Assembly (NCBI RefSeq): GCF_001426885.1
Contig: NZ_LMFP01000003.1
Location: 503,306-567,305 of the forward strand
Length of the DNA stretch: 64,000 nucleotides
Reading direction: 5' to 3'
From: Pelomonas sp. Root1444
GTDB taxonomy: Bacteria > Pseudomonadota > Gammaproteobacteria > Burkholderiales > Burkholderiaceae_C
This document shows positions 25,487 to 31,250 of this stretch, piece after piece. The notes beneath the pieces are model-generated. The model saw nothing but the letters and a program-made list of their open reading frames with translations. It was not told the DNA's origin and did no database searches. Made by a program: the position numbers and the translations under genes. How positions within the stretch are numbered: the first letter of the stretch is position 1; the number at the start of each line of letters is the position of its first letter.

Positions 25487-25999
25487 ATGGACAGCACTTC
25501 CGATCACGCGTCATCGTCCTCCAGTGACAGCCGCCGTCTTGCGCAGGCGATGGGGCCCGCCTTCGGCCCCATGGACTCCCTCAACCCGGGCTCCCATGCT
25601 GACGGCCGGGTCACCCTGCCGAGGGGCCTGGACGCCAGCCGGTTCGGTGAACGGCTGATCGCCGCCATGCAGTTGCGCGGCAACTTCAAGGCCACGGCGC
25701 TTGCCTGTGCGCTGGCGGTGAACGAGGCCGCCATCAGCCGCTGGAAGCGGGGCGGCCCCATCACGCTGCACCATGCCATCCGCCTGTGCGACACGCTCGA
25801 CATCTCGATGGACTGGCTGATCCGGGGAATCGGCCACCCGGCGGTGCACCACCGGCCCGACGGCGGGCAACCGCCGCCGCTGGTCAGCGAGCGCACGGTC
25901 GACGAGGTGCGTGCGCTCCTGAGCTTCATCGAACGCCGCACGGAGATCCGGCTTGCACAGGATGCAAGTGGTCAGTCCTGCGGCGCAAGAGCCACCTGA
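25487..25999 (+). CDS. Small HTH protein (lambda-repressor/Cro-like)
   Basis: This 170-residue protein begins with a Ser-rich disordered stretch. A five-helix Cro/C1-type DNA-binding region follows (about residues 50-115: FGERLIAAMQLRGN, ALACALAVNEAAISRWKRGG, LCDTLDISMDWLIRG). The C-terminal helix has ERTVDEVRALLSFIERRTEI and there is no sensor domain. A CAGGAG ribosome site lies 6 bases before the ATG. It leads a block of four same-strand genes and is the natural candidate to regulate it. I know no specific family for it beyond the HTH. Confidence 0.75.
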   Translation: MDSTSDHASSSSSDSRRLAQAMGPAFGPMDSLNPGSHADGRVTLPRGLDASRFGERLIAAMQLRGNFKATALACALAVNEAAISRWKRGGPITLHHAIRLCDTLDISMDWLIRGIGHPAVHHRPDGGQPPPLVSERTVDEVRALLSFIERRTEIRLAQDASGQSCGARAT

Positions 26000-26091
26000 A
26001 CACCTGACGGGCGATCGCCGCCATGCTTGTGCAGCACCGATGGACGGTGCCACATCGCGGTCTTTTCCTTCACTTCAACAGGAGAGCGGTC

Positions 26092-27204
26092 ATGGCTGAA
26101 TCGAGCGAACAAGGTTTTCAAGTCCTCACCCAACCCAGCGGGCTTGCCGAAGACGGCGGCACCGCCTGGAACGTGCAGCTGACCCGGCTGCTGCGCAACA
26201 CGGATCGGTTCGCCTGGGGCAACTGGACGCTCGATCCGACCATCAGGGTCGGGGCGCTGGGCTGGTTCAATCCGACCGACAGCCAGTTCCAAGGGGCGCA
26301 GACGGGCATCGCCGTCCCCGCCCTGACCGCCGTCTCCGGCACCGACTGGCACATCGAGCAGGGCGACGTGAAGCAGACGACGGTCGGTGTGAAGTTCGAC
26401 GTGCCGTACAAGGACCCGACCACCGGCACCGAGGTCACCGTCGGCCTGCAGAGCAGCTGGGACTTCGGCACCAAGGGCTCTCTGACGTCGACGGGCTCGA
26501 CCTACGGCGTCGAGTTCGTCGAAGACCCCGCCAAGGTCATGCTGGAGCGGTACGACGAGATCCTTCAGGTGGCCAAGAAATACAACAAGGCCACGGGCGA
26601 CAAGATCGACCAAGGCTTCGGGATGATCACCAAGGTCTGGCTCACCGACGGCTGCGTGAACATCGGCTCGCGCCAGGACAAGGCCGAGTTCAGCATCACC
26701 GGCTCGGTCGACGGTGTCGCCGCGATGACGGGCAGCGACCAGTCCGCCTCGCTGAAGGGCTCCTACAAGAACACCTCCTCGACGGACAACATCGAGAAGC
26801 GGCTATTCCCCAGCAAGACGAATGTGGTCGATCGCGAGCCGGTGGCCTACGCCTACGAATTCACGTCCTTTGCGGGCCGGGTCATCATCCCTCGCTGGGT
26901 GGGCGACATCCCCTACCTCAACCTGTGGCTGGACAACGGCGGCTCCTACATCGTCAACGCCACGGTGACGTACTGGCTGAACGGCGACAAGGTGACCCGC
27001 ACGGCTCGCGTCTCGGGCGGGATGGACACCCAGATCACGGGCATCCCGCTGGAGGCGACCGACTTCGACATCCGCATGGATTTCACCGCAGGCGCCACGC
27101 AATTCCTGCGCGTTGCCAATCCGCTCAACACCTGGGAACTCGGCCGCGGGCACATCAAGCTGACTGGCTGGTGGCCGGGACGCTCCGGCGCGGCCTGGAT
27201 CTGA
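26092..27204 (+). CDS. Unrecognised Trp-rich, beta-rich protein
   Basis: This 370-residue protein has no signal peptide or membrane helix. I do not recognise it. It has 14 tryptophans, many spaced through alternating polar/hydrophobic stretches that look like beta strands, one long amphipathic helix in the middle (about 158-185, KVMLERYDEILQVAKKYN), and a Ser/Thr/Gly-rich stretch after it. The C-terminal third (IIPRWVGDIPYLNLWLDNGG onward) reads as a separate beta domain. Strand-helix-strand order with soluble export-free sequence is seen in some pore-forming or lipid-binding folds, but that is an impression only. An AGGAGAG ribosome site precedes the ATG at 26092, which I prefer over an earlier in-frame ATG at 26023. 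A lipoprotein gene follows 132 bases later. Confidence 0.7.
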   Translation: MAESSEQGFQVLTQPSGLAEDGGTAWNVQLTRLLRNTDRFAWGNWTLDPTIRVGALGWFNPTDSQFQGAQTGIAVPALTAVSGTDWHIEQGDVKQTTVGVKFDVPYKDPTTGTEVTVGLQSSWDFGTKGSLTSTGSTYGVEFVEDPAKVMLERYDEILQVAKKYNKATGDKIDQGFGMITKVWLTDGCVNIGSRQDKAEFSITGSVDGVAAMTGSDQSASLKGSYKNTSSTDNIEKRLFPSKTNVVDREPVAYAYEFTSFAGRVIIPRWVGDIPYLNLWLDNGGSYIVNATVTYWLNGDKVTRTARVSGGMDTQITGIPLEATDFDIRMDFTAGATQFLRVANPLNTWELGRGHIKLTGWWPGRSGAAWI

Positions 27205-27215
27205 CCTTCGCCAGC

Positions 27216-27238
27216 GACGCGGCCCGTCGAGCCGCGTC
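27216..27238 (+). repeat. Perfect 8-bp hairpin after the Trp-rich gene
   Basis: GACGCGGC (27216-27223) pairs with GCCGCGTC (27231-27238) around a 7-base loop, 11 bases after the stop. There is no T-run, so at most it is a weak terminator or an mRNA 3' stabiliser. Confidence 0.5.
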
Positions 27239-27336
27239 CGGTGCCGACGCAGGGCGTGGGGAAGGGCTGTCGCCGAGATTCGGTGGCGGCCAGCCTGCGC
27301 TCGATGTCATGCCTCTGAGTACAAGGATCCACCGCC

Positions 27337-27885
27337 ATGAGCAAAGCGCTTCTCACCCTCCTGTCGACGATGGTGCTCGCGTCCTGCGCGCAACTGCCAC
27401 CGACGCCGACACCTCAGCCCCAGCAGCCTCGGCAAACCGCCGATGTGGCCTGGTATCCCACCCATCTCTACCGCGGTTTGAGGGTCGTTGCGGGAACGGT
27501 GAACCAGATCGACTGGTCCCGGGCCAGCTTCGGCGTGTCGGGCAACCCCGCGACCTTGTCCCTGTTCAACAACATGGCCCACGCCGCCGCCTTTCCCTGC
27601 TGGTTGAGGATCTCGGTCGATGTGCCCGGCAATCCACCGCCGCCGCCTCTGGTCGTCGGAGACCTGACCATACCCAACCCGCCACCCGGCGGCGCCAACG
27701 CGGGGCCGTGGCCCGTGGTGTTCGACAATGTGCCGCCCGGTCATTGGTCCATCGCGAGGGCCACGATAGGCGGTGCCAGCAACAACGCGGCAAGCGACCG
27801 CGCCGCAGCCGTCTTCACGGCCATGGCGCATGCGCCGCTGCCCACTGCGCTGGTCAGGGACGGGAGCGCCGTGGGTTGCCATTGA
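27337..27885 (+). CDS. Putative lipoprotein of unknown function
   Basis: This 182-residue protein starts with a lipoprotein signal (MSKALLTLLSTMVLASCAQL, lipobox LASC with Cys19), followed by a Pro/Gln-rich tether and a beta-rich domain with two more Pro-rich loops. The residue after the Cys is Ala, so outer-membrane targeting is expected under the usual Lol rule. I do not recognise the mature domain. An AAGGAT ribosome-like site precedes the ATG. Its neighbours are the Trp-rich protein and another unrecognised protein, all on one strand. Confidence 0.72.
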   Translation: MSKALLTLLSTMVLASCAQLPPTPTPQPQQPRQTADVAWYPTHLYRGLRVVAGTVNQIDWSRASFGVSGNPATLSLFNNMAHAAAFPCWLRISVDVPGNPPPPPLVVGDLTIPNPPPGGANAGPWPVVFDNVPPGHWSIARATIGGASNNAASDRAAAVFTAMAHAPLPTALVRDGSAVGCH

Positions 27886-27932
27886 CGGGACGCAAACCGG
27901 GCCCACCGGCAGGGCTGCAACAGGAGCGCTGA

Positions 27933-28502
27933 GTGGCCTTCATGGTTCACTGTGGTCGATGCAGGCTGTCGCCAGTACGCTGCAGCTTGCTGCTCGCGCA
28001 ATGGCGGCTGGCCACAGGCGGTCAGGGCGCAAGCGCCCGTCAACAGGCCGTCGGCCGTCTGCATGCCTTGACGCCGCATCAACTGGCATGCCTCGGTCTG
28101 CAGGACGATGCCTATGCGCGCGGTTGGCTGGCGTCCGGCCCTGCCGGCATGAGCATGGCGCTGTCATTGCAGATGCTCGAATGGACCACGCTTGTACCTG
28201 CGCTGCCCCCACAGCTTTGGCATGCCATGTTCCACGATGCAAGCGCCTTGGCACTGCCCCGTGGCCTGGCTCGACGCGTGGCGGCAGGCGCCACGCTGGC
28301 GCATTGGCTGGGCGCGCTGACCGGCCGCCGCTTGTCCTCCCCACCGGATGCTCACCTGGGCCGCTGGGTGCCGGGCCGGACGGCGCTGCGGTTGCGGCGC
28401 TGCCTGCGAGCGCCCGGCGCGGATGCACACCACGACGCCATCCGCAGCACGCTGGACAGCCTGACGGCAGACGATTGGCTCCTCGTCAACACCCTCTGGT
28501 AG
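27933..28502 (+). CDS. Unrecognised 189-residue protein
   Basis: The GTG start at 27933 is supported by AGGAG six bases upstream. The protein has no signal peptide; it is largely helical by composition, rich in Ala, Leu, Arg and His, with a repeated LALPRGLARRV and LGRWVPGRTALRLRRCL character and the C-terminus DDWLLVNTLW. I recognise no family. It ends the four-gene block; a hairpin separates it from the convergent radical-SAM gene. Confidence 0.55.
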   Translation: MAFMVHCGRCRLSPVRCSLLLAQWRLATGGQGASARQQAVGRLHALTPHQLACLGLQDDAYARGWLASGPAGMSMALSLQMLEWTTLVPALPPQLWHAMFHDASALALPRGLARRVAAGATLAHWLGALTGRRLSSPPDAHLGRWVPGRTALRLRRCLRAPGADAHHDAIRSTLDSLTADDWLLVNTLW

Positions 28503-28547: not shown

Positions 28548-29672
28548 CTAGAACAAATCGCCCTGTGCCGACGGCTTGCGCGGCCGGTTGAACAGCGCCA
28601 GTTGCACCGGCCGCCGTTTGTTGCGCAGCCCCAGCTTCGCAACGGCCCGTTGGAAGCGCGCCTGCAGCAACTGGGCCCACACCCCCTCGCCGGTGAAACG
28701 CGTGCCGAAGCGCGGGTCGTTGTCCTTGCCACCGCGCATCTCGCGAATGCGCGCCATCACACGCTCTGCCCGGTCGGGAAAGTGGCGGTCCAGCCAGTCC
28801 TGGAACAGCGGGTTCACCTCCCAAGGCAGGCGCACCGGGATGCTGAAGGCGCTGCTGGCGCCCGCCTCTGCGGCGGCGGCCAAAATGCGCTCCAGCTCCG
28901 GTTCGTTGATGAAGGGAATGATGGGCGACACGCTGACGCCCACCGGCACGCCGGCGTCCGCCAACGCCTGGATCGTGCGCAGGCGCCGCGCCGGTGCCGC
29001 GGCGCGCGGTTCCAGGATGCGGGCGAGGTCGTTGTCCAGCGTCGTCACCGACAGGTAGACCGACACCAGCCCCTGCGCCGCCATCGGCGCGATCAGGTCC
29101 AGCTCGCGTTCGATGCCGCTGCTCTTGGTGACGACCGAGAACGGGTGGCTGCATTCCGCCAGCACCTCGACGATGCGCCGCGTGATGCCCAGCTTGCGCT
29201 CGACCGGCTGGTAAGCATCGGTGGCCGTGCCGAGCACCAGCGAGCGCGGCTCGTAGCGCGGCGAGGCCAGCGTCTCGCGCAGCCGCTCGGCCGCGTTGAC
29301 CTTGGCCACGATGCGCGTTTCGAAATCCAGCCCCGGCGAGAGGTTCAGGTAGCTGTGGGTCGGCCGCGCGAAGCAATAGATGCAGCCATGCTCGCAACCG
29401 CGGTACGGGTTGATCGAGTAGTCGAAGTTGATGTCGGGCGACTGGTTGGCCGTGACGATCTTCTTGGCCATCTCCTCGATGACCTGGGTCGCCGGCGGCA
29501 GATGCTCCTCGGCAGCTTCCTGGTCCAACGACCCCCAGCCGTCGTCGTACTGTTCGCGCTTACGCTGCTCGAAGCGATGCGGCATCGCGGTGGCCGTGCC
29601 GCGGCCCTTGATCGAGTCCAGCGGGACGAGTGCAGGTTGGGCGGCGGCGATGCGGGTGGGAGCGGAAGTCAT
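28548..29672 (-). CDS. PA0069-family radical SAM protein (SplB-like)
   Basis: This 374-residue protein has the radical-SAM cluster Cys93-x3-Cys97-x2-Cys100 in NPYRGCEHGCIYCFARPTHS, then LSPGLDFET, which is typical of the PA0069/Rv2578c family. The family belongs to COG1533, the same broad group as spore photoproduct lyase (a DNA repair enzyme), but its reaction is unknown. The N-terminal GRG and PHRFEQ motifs agree with an ATG at 29670-29672. A LexA-type box begins one base upstream of this codon, and no ribosome site is visible, so the message may be leaderless or the TATATT inside the box may be the -10. This places the gene in the DNA-damage response by inference. Confidence 0.92.
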   Translation of the reverse strand: MTSAPTRIAAAQPALVPLDSIKGRGTATAMPHRFEQRKREQYDDGWGSLDQEAAEEHLPPATQVIEEMAKKIVTANQSPDINFDYSINPYRGCEHGCIYCFARPTHSYLNLSPGLDFETRIVAKVNAAERLRETLASPRYEPRSLVLGTATDAYQPVERKLGITRRIVEVLAECSHPFSVVTKSSGIERELDLIAPMAAQGLVSVYLSVTTLDNDLARILEPRAAAPARRLRTIQALADAGVPVGVSVSPIIPFINEPELERILAAAAEAGASSAFSIPVRLPWEVNPLFQDWLDRHFPDRAERVMARIREMRGGKDNDPRFGTRFTGEGVWAQLLQARFQRAVAKLGLRNKRRPVQLALFNRPRKPSAQGDLF

Positions 29673-29673
29673 A

Positions 29674-29689
29674 CTGTGAATATATACAG
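29674..29689 (-). promoter_or_regulatory. LexA (SOS) box
   Basis: CTGTGAATATATACAG fits the LexA pattern CTGT-N8-ACAG used in beta- and gamma-proteobacteria, with an AT-only-like centre that is rare in this GC-rich DNA. It lies one base upstream of the start codon of the radical-SAM gene. A TATATT inside it (minus strand) could be the -10 element, so bound LexA would block RNA polymerase directly. Confidence 0.75.
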
Positions 29690-29771
29690 CTTTTGACCAC
29701 GCACCACGGCGAGAGTGTTTCAGGCCCGCAATGGCCGGGCACGTTGAACGCTGCCATGGCCCCGCGAAGAA

Positions 29772-29802
29772 AAGGCCACTGATGCGCTGCATCGGTGGCC
29801 TT
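29772..29802 (-). terminator. Intrinsic terminator of dnaB
   Basis: AAGGCCACTGATG (29772-29784) pairs with CATCGGTGGCCTT (29790-29802), one G-U pair, and on the minus strand a CCTTTTCTTC tail follows. It lies 24 bases after the dnaB stop. Confidence 0.8.
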
Positions 29803-29825
29803 CTGTAAATTGCGCCGGTGGACCG

Positions 29826-31250
29826 CTAGTACTCGTCCCGCTCCACGCCCACGTACCCCGGCGCGAGGTTCTCGAACTTGGTGTGCATGCGCTGGAACAT
29901 CAGCTTCACCGTGCCCACCGGGCCGTTACGCTGTTTCGCAATGATGATCTCCGCGACCCCAGGCTCCTTGCACTCGTCCTTCGTGTAGTACTCGTCCCGG
30001 TAGATGAACATGATGATGTCCGCGTCCTGCTCGATGGCGCCGGACTCGCGCAGGTCGGACATCATGGGCCGCTTGTCGGGCCGCTGCTCCACCGAGCGGT
30101 TCAGCTGCGACAGCGCGATGACGGGGCAGCGCAGTTCCTTGGCCAGCGCCTTCAGGCCGCGCGAGATCTCGCCCAGCACGGTGGCACGGTTCTCCTCGCT
30201 GCCACCGCCGCTGCCACTCATCAGCTGCAGGTAGTCGATGACGATGAGTCCGAGCTGGCCACTGATGCGGGCCTGTCGACGGGCACGGGCACGCACCTCG
30301 CTTGGCGACAAGCCGGGGCTCTCGTCAATATAGATGGCGGCTTTGCCAAGCTTGTCGACCGCCTCCGACAGCCGGCCCCACTCGTCGTCAGCCAGCTTGC
30401 CGGTACGCAGGTGGCTCTGGTCGATGCGGCCGATGGAGCCCACCATCCGCAGCGCCAGCTGCGCGGCGCCCATTTCCATCGAGTAGATGACGACCGGCAG
30501 GCCTTCGTTGATCGCGACGTTCTCGGCAATGTTGACGGCGAAGGCGGTCTTGCCCATGGATGGCCGCGCGGCCAGCACGATCAGGTCGCCGGGCTGCAGG
30601 CCGGCGGTCTGCTTGTCCAGGTCGTAGAAACCGGTGCGCACGCCGGTCACGTCCTGGGCGCCACTCTCGGCCAGTTCGTTGACGCGGTCGATCAGCGCGA
30701 CGACCAGGTTGTCCATGCTCTGGAAGCCCTGGCGGCTGCGCGAGCCCTCCTCGCCGATGCGGAAGATCTTGCCCTCGGCCTCGTCGAGGATCTGCGTGAC
30801 CGCGCGGCCCTGCGGGTTCATCGCCGCGGTGGCGATCTCGTCACTCGTGGCCACCAGCTTGCGCAGGATGGCGCGCTCCCGAACGATCTCGGCATAACGC
30901 CGCAAGTTGGCGGCACTCGGCACGCTCTGGGCGATCGAATTCAGGTAGGCCAGGCCACCGCATTCCTCGGCGCGGCCCAGCGACGTCAGGTCGTCGAAGA
31001 CGGTGACGACGTCGGCCGGCTTGCCCGCGTTGATGAGCTTGCCGATCGACGCAAAGATGTGCTTGTGCTCGAAGCGGTAGAAGTCGCTGTCGGTCAGCAG
31101 GTCGGCGGCGCGGTCCCAGGCCGAGTTGTCGATCAGCAGGCCGCCGAGCACGCTGTACTCGGCCTCGACCGAGTGCGGCGGCACGCGCAGGCGCGCGACC
31201 TCGTCGTCATGCGGCGCGGTGGAGGAGGAACCAGGAAAGATCGCGGACAT
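29826..31250 (-). CDS. dnaB: Replicative DNA helicase DnaB
   Basis: This 474-residue protein has the N-terminal DnaB domain (PPHSVEAEYSVLGGLLIDN onward) and the RecA-like helicase core with Walker A ARPSMGKTAF, Walker B LIVIDYLQLM, and the arginine finger region SDLRESGAIEQDAD. It unwinds DNA at the fork with DnaG, also encoded in this window. It follows the rpsF-priB-rpsR-rplI operon, but a strong terminator in the gap suggests it has its own promoter. A perfect DnaA box lies three bases before its start codon. Confidence 0.98.
   Translation of the reverse strand: MSAIFPGSSSTAPHDDEVARLRVPPHSVEAEYSVLGGLLIDNSAWDRAADLLTDSDFYRFEHKHIFASIGKLINAGKPADVVTVFDDLTSLGRAEECGGLAYLNSIAQSVPSAANLRRYAEIVRERAILRKLVATSDEIATAAMNPQGRAVTQILDEAEGKIFRIGEEGSRSRQGFQSMDNLVVALIDRVNELAESGAQDVTGVRTGFYDLDKQTAGLQPGDLIVLAARPSMGKTAFAVNIAENVAINEGLPVVIYSMEMGAAQLALRMVGSIGRIDQSHLRTGKLADDEWGRLSEAVDKLGKAAIYIDESPGLSPSEVRARARRQARISGQLGLIVIDYLQLMSGSGGGSEENRATVLGEISRGLKALAKELRCPVIALSQLNRSVEQRPDKRPMMSDLRESGAIEQDADIIMFIYRDEYYTKDECKEPGVAEIIIAKQRNGPVGTVKLMFQRMHTKFENLAPGYVGVERDEY

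Follow-up and report, generated by a model that had tools for sequence, protein, structure and literature searches.

Control of the gene splB by LexA has been predicted in alpha- and betaproteobacteria, with an argument drawn from the divergence of the LexA motif. In the passages of that study devoted to it, splB is called a homologue of the spore photoproduct lyase (SPL) of B. subtilis and is predicted to have LexA sites in two bacterial groups that do not share a LexA motif, and these passages describe for it neither a fusion to the start codon nor a leaderless mRNA (PMC3323433). This splB is probably the PA0069 family considered here. The relevant passage of a second paper states that COG1533/SplB is SOS-regulated in several species, citing Cirz et al. 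2006 for Pseudomonas aeruginosa, and these genes resemble the one described below in coding for radical-SAM proteins under SOS control (PMC8565304). In Streptomyces venezuelae, the radical-SAM gene vnz_31145 is listed in a table of the LexA regulon with the values 19.97 and 1.31, which, going by the footnote of that table, are most likely the fold change under mitomycin C and the log2 change in LexA ChIP (PMC9380542). The likeness is that of a radical-SAM gene in a LexA regulon and does not imply membership in the family model NF033668; the box given for vnz_31145 in that table is of another type and has its first base at -61, and is thus farther from the start than the box of the PA0069-family gene (PMC9380542). 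A leaderless SOS mRNA is that of Mycobacterium tuberculosis lexA, as stated in the pertinent parts of two papers, although both gene and lineage differ from those studied here (PMC3062782, PMC2897130). As SOS control was predicted or stated in the cited parts of this earlier work (PMC3323433, PMC8565304 and, for Streptomyces, PMC9380542), membership in the SOS regulon is not new. The new element may be the fused, leaderless architecture of operator and start codon together with its recurrence; among the matches listed in a search of the open-licence literature, no paper was found on a LexA box fused to a start codon in this way.

We consider it very probable that the PA0069-family gene analysed here is a LexA-repressed SOS gene that combines operator, core promoter and start codon in one fused element, and whose mRNA is leaderless. 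LexA bound to the box would cover both the -10 element and the transcription start. Upon DNA damage, RecA filaments would bring about the self-cleavage of LexA, sigma-70 RNA polymerase would then start at the A of the ATG, and the leaderless mRNA would be translated from its 5' AUG to give a radical-SAM enzyme for DNA repair or tolerance.

The PA0069-family gene and the box at its start codon

The features of the locus, from the 3' end of the gene to its upstream neighbour, are as follows ("window" denotes the whole 64-kb stretch of DNA that was analysed).

28548..29672, minus strand: PA0069-family radical-SAM gene, 374 aa (NF033668, 467 bits against a cut-off of 360)
29670..29672, minus strand: start codon ATG, with transcription predicted to begin at its A (29672)
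29674..29689, minus strand: predicted LexA operator (SOS box), reading CTGTATATATTCACAG on this strand and found in 77/80 close relatives
29679..29684, minus strand: TATATT at box positions 6-11, predicted to serve as the -10 hexamer
29702..29707, minus strand: predicted -35 position, here GTGGTG, 17 bp from the -10
29755..29815, minus strand: terminator-like hairpin stretch between dnaB and the PA0069-family gene, -25.9 kcal/mol
29826..31250, minus strand: dnaB replicative helicase, the upstream neighbour on the same strand (TIGR00665, 558.8 bits against a cut-off of 385.25)

In a profile search the product passes the curated cut-off of NF033668 over residues 22-374 of its 374, and it also matches Pfam Radical_SAM with 59.2 bits, which upholds the family assignment made in the preliminary description. 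The P. aeruginosa LexA list of Cirz et al. 2006 reportedly includes PA0069. The hairpin stretch upstream is more stable than expected (z -4.06, with 0/200 shuffles equally low) and is absent from the output of a strict terminator scan. Past the 3' end of the gene, four plus-strand ORFs occupy 25487-28502; one is HTH-like (20.1 bits, just below the Pfam cut-off of 23), the other three have no Pfam match, and NCBIfam gave no match to any of them at E 0.001, the HTH-like one included.

The plus strand at 29674-29689 reads CTGTGAATATATACAG, a perfect CTGT-N8-ACAG, and a single base (29673) separates it from the ATG at 29672-29670, just as the preliminary description had claimed. The order on the minus strand is accordingly GTCAAAAG, then CTGTATATATTCACAG, then T, ATG and ACT. 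This is the one exact match to CTGT-N8-ACAG in the 64-kb window, where 0.51 are expected and 40 of 100 shuffles contain at least one; such a number is at chance level, and taken by itself the match has no significance and proves nothing. It is on this count that the box might be taken for a chance AT-rich palindrome in front of a gene outside the SOS regulon. Conservation of the box in relatives rejects chance and indicates that the observation is real; together with the correlation with lexA and the switch to an alpha-type motif described below, it makes a chance palindrome extremely improbable. The whole genome contains 22 CTGT-N8-ACAG sites, whereas the reversed pattern occurs 10 times. When both strands are considered, an ATG stands exactly at +1, i.e. 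after one intervening base, at the PA0069-family box only, with an ATG directly after the box at one other site and two bases after it at two others.

Conservation of the box and the SOS regulon

Close relatives were taken as the best 80 of 543 candidates in species genomes, many of them Sphaerotilaceae (Roseateles, Pelomonas, Rubrivivax, Rhizobacter). The box lies upstream of the gene in 77 of these 80 related, and hence not independent, genomes, being perfect in 72 and matching 7 of 8 positions in five. No box was found in L048 and L061, where the contig extends 168 and 107 nt upstream, or in the 350 nt searched for L057. Across the order, the NF033668 family is above its cut-off in 154 of 399 Burkholderiales genomes, from which a sample of 110 was formed from the 30 best-scoring and 80 hand-chosen for family spread. 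Within this sample a perfect box is present in 38 and one with 7 of 8 in 12, which leaves 60 with neither; a scan for the reversed pattern gave 0/110. Counting perfect and 7-of-8 boxes alike, the distribution follows families, with 9/9 in the window's own family f1, 6/6 in f4, 4/4 in f8 and 8/9 in f30, as against 0/6 in f47 and 0/4 in f26. The proposed recurrence of the box in Burkholderiales orthologues thus holds for the close relatives and for 50 of the 110 others, and fails for the remaining 60, which lack a perfect or near-perfect box.

Some of these 60 box-less loci bear related sites. The symmetric variant CTGG-N8-CCAG is present in seven, in four of which (L099, L111, L114 and L132) it stands exactly one base before the ATG, and an AT-rich site matching 6 of 8 positions is present in 12. 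A search for shared motifs in the box-less genomes recovered ACTGG-N8-CCAGT in three families, with shuffles reaching two or three. A direct GCCGC repeat in 4/30 box-less families was set aside as GC-rich noise, and a looser search returned mostly coding sequence, taken to be the segment encoding KGRG.

In a wider draw from the window's own class the box was seen in 1/30 best-scoring loci, and in 13 of 20 further hand-picked genomes, leaving seven without it; both of these results count against a fused SOS promoter. Eight of the 13 belong to f210, a family from another order of this class, where CTGT-N8-ACAG is present in 8/8, as well as in L294, whereas the passages on splB in the earlier study report the trait as not seen in gammaproteobacteria (PMC3323433). 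In another class of the same phylum a different box, GTTC-N7-GTTC, is found in 30/30 best-scoring loci and in 16/20 hand-picked genomes, and we infer that these genomes are Alphaproteobacteria. The control pattern CTTG-N7-CTTG matched 4/30 of these loci, three of the matches overlapping the GTTC box, and 1/20 of the hand-picked genomes, where the reversed CTGT pattern also occurred in 1/20. Likewise, GTTC-N7-GTTC is present in 4/4 named alphaproteobacterial plasmid records (Sinorhizobium meliloti, Paracoccus ferrooxidans, Sphingomonas parapaucimobilis and Methylobacterium aquaticum, from 67 records with a match), none of which has a control match. The PA0069-family gene hence carries the LexA box type of its host class, which makes a chance origin of the box very unlikely.

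The presence of the box is also correlated with that of LexA, which is above its cut-off in 47/50 box-bearing as against 36/60 box-less genomes (p = 3.6e-5); the latter 36, with a full LexA and yet no box, speak against the fused SOS promoter. The window's genome encodes a canonical LexA (227.5 bits, cut-off 110.95), whose recognition segment resembles that of E. coli LexA, and its lexA gene has the 7-of-8 box CTGGACAAAAATACAG upstream. Among 59 lexA frames read by script from 60 loci, one of which gave none, 34 have a perfect box upstream and 10 one with 7 of 8, at least one frame (L215) having been misread. Taken together, the conserved box, the motif switch in the presumed Alphaproteobacteria, the correlation with lexA and the apparently E. 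coli-like LexA strongly support, at the level of sequence, control of the PA0069-family gene by LexA within the SOS response, as the preliminary description had proposed.

Several other boxes of the same genome lie at varied distances from their genes, and those at recA, imuA and an integron integrase, all with an acknowledged SOS connection, add to the case for SOS control. That of recA has a TTG at +1, with the likely ATG 37 nt downstream, and that of imuA lies 15 nt before the ATG. An integron integrase (L371; NF011946, 506.4 bits) has a box at C29:211286-211301, 8 or 74 nt away depending on the start codon, and the integron is likely to be SOS-controlled. A second radical-SAM gene of SOS type (L372) has a box 8 nt before its ATG at C32:110651-110666; its product matches TIGR03916 (532 bits, cut-off 343.5), i.e. 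rSAM_link_UDG, a putative DNA modification/repair radical-SAM protein. Two 91-aa ORFs, at C3:96338 (L003) and C28:65125 (L014), share one and the same box, CTGTATGCAATTACAG, upstream; they are alike by eye, have no NCBIfam match and are candidates for SOS proteins, and that of L014 is 91 or 104 aa long depending on the start codon. At C3:826569-826605 (L005/L006), two perfect boxes stand five bases apart in a double-operator arrangement.

Anatomy of the predicted promoter and leaderless mRNA

In 72 of the 77 box-bearing close relatives an in-frame ATG stands exactly one base past the box. Adding the window and 11 genomes from the order-level sample gives a +1 class of 84 loci. Box positions 6-11, where the -10 is predicted, most commonly read TATATT (34/84), with TAAATT in 15/84; they are followed by six bases that might act as a discriminator and then by the A of the ATG. 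Exactly 17 bp before these positions stands a -35-like T.G motif (T at -18, G at -16), found in 55/84 as against 1 to 12/84 at 19 other offsets, in counts that take no account of relatedness. Save for this region and the AT-rich flank of the box (-5 to -1), the upstream DNA of the 84 loci is near background. In the window itself, GTGGTG is one base off the T.G motif, the conserved T being absent, and no promoter was detected in the intergenic stretch by a strict sigma-70 scan; both observations weigh against the fused promoter.

A Shine-Dalgarno-like tetramer is found in 0/84 of the +1 class, as compared with 8/28 leadered relatives, defined by a gap of 5-40 nt between the box and the first start codon. 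An in-frame stop within the box, in 34/84 of the class, rules out an earlier start in those loci. In 45/84 there is no alternative start codon ahead of the GRG core, and 17/84 combine this with the in-box stop. Across the 84 loci, anything from 9 to 45 codons separates the ATG from the conserved GRG core, with a constant spacing between box and ATG. When the boxes of lexA were used as a control, a start codon was found at +1 in 0/39. The -35-like motif at its exact spacing, the ATG at the predicted start point and the absence of Shine-Dalgarno-like tetramers support a leaderless message, and the PA0069-family mRNA is predicted to be leaderless in the majority of the close relatives as well as in certain distant families of Burkholderiales. 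The earlier suggestion that TATATT might serve as the -10 of a leaderless or nearly leaderless mRNA is thereby strengthened.

Alternatively, the gene could be SOS-controlled and have an ordinary leader, with transcription starting upstream of the box, which would either block the polymerase as a roadblock or simply be part of the leader, and with the ATG at +1 owing to close descent. The negative promoter scan would agree with this, as would eight box-bearing genomes of family f1 in which the nearest listed start codon is 2 to 84 nt away. However, the start codon of the +1 class would then have to function with no Shine-Dalgarno sequence, and the -35-like motif stands precisely where it would serve the -10 inside the box; close descent is further contradicted by the +1 spacing in the distant families f24, f30 and f39. 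An ordinary leader is thus unlikely, though less so than a chance palindrome, and the leaderless promoter fused to the operator is the preferred reading.

The history of this layout was traced on a tree built from 74 protein sequences by a quick method with no bootstrap; beside that of the window, it holds 38 from the 80 close relatives, 30 from the order-level sample and five others. The +1 class requires eight changes on this tree, six of them forced by well supported branches, against a shuffle mean of 21. Its members are scattered across the Sphaerotilaceae and, outside them, occur in f24 and f30, which well supported branches set apart from the Sphaerotilaceae; the +1 member of f39 is outside the tree. 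These changes, along with the CTGG-N8-CCAG sites at +1 in four loci scored as box-less, suggest either a repeated origin or losses, with the fused layout retained.

Relation of the enzyme to spore photoproduct lyase

The name splB implies that the product is a true SPL, repairing thymine dimers in a manner akin to photoreactivation. SOS control would fit such a function, as would the remote resemblance of its profile to those of SPL-family proteins (hhalign probability 95, E 3.9e-8). In contrast, the product falls far below the cut-offs of both curated SPL models (TIGR04070, 16.6 bits against 400; TIGR03886, 10.2 against 437.55). The kinship with SPL pointed out in the preliminary description therefore stands as a distant one and does not extend to membership in either model. 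Furthermore, G691, G798, G805 and G821 each hold a TIGR03886 gene beside a PA0069-family gene, which also argues against the two being the same enzyme.

In SPL a conserved cysteine, separate from those of the cluster motif, acts as hydrogen donor. In the PA0069 family the cluster motif CxxxCxxC occupies residues 93-100, and C93, C97 and C100 are invariant in 45/45 aligned sequences. Outside this motif no cysteine is present in more than 25 of the 45, the counts at residues 142, 174 and 344 being 21, 19 and 25. The SPL-like proteins L380 and L381 have a cysteine, presumably the catalytic hydrogen donor, within the two positions that precede the TD motif. Neither of these positions is a cysteine in any of the 45 relatives, and at the one matched by eye to the cysteine of L380 and L381 the residue is T, A, S, I or V in all 45. 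This absence speaks against a true SPL, with the qualification that the four TIGR03886 members L374-L377 share it and that L380 itself is below the TIGR04070 cut-off (278.4 of 400). A true SPL is on these grounds decidedly improbable. No solved structure was matched by phmmer; the best PDB match of the profile is SkfB, partial and with E 0.00046, and phage records gave five weak, partial matches. Given the predicted SOS control and the distant SPL kinship, a part in DNA repair or tolerance is the likeliest role of the product.

A wider proposal would combine these points, namely that Burkholderiales repeatedly evolved a leaderless SOS promoter, an element of about 40 bp with the -10 inside the operator and a flank that sets the transcription start at the ATG, and coupled it to a radical-SAM repair chemistry unlike that of SPL; we offer it tentatively, its chances being slightly short of even. 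If splB belongs to the PA0069 family, its label is open to question, in that the family fails the curated SPL models and has no conserved cysteine beyond the cluster motif, and splB would represent a widespread SOS-controlled radical-SAM enzyme distinct, by those models, from SPL. The locus also offers a clear instance in which leaderless SOS expression can be tested in Gram-negative bacteria, with one short element that would set repression and the starts of both transcription and translation.
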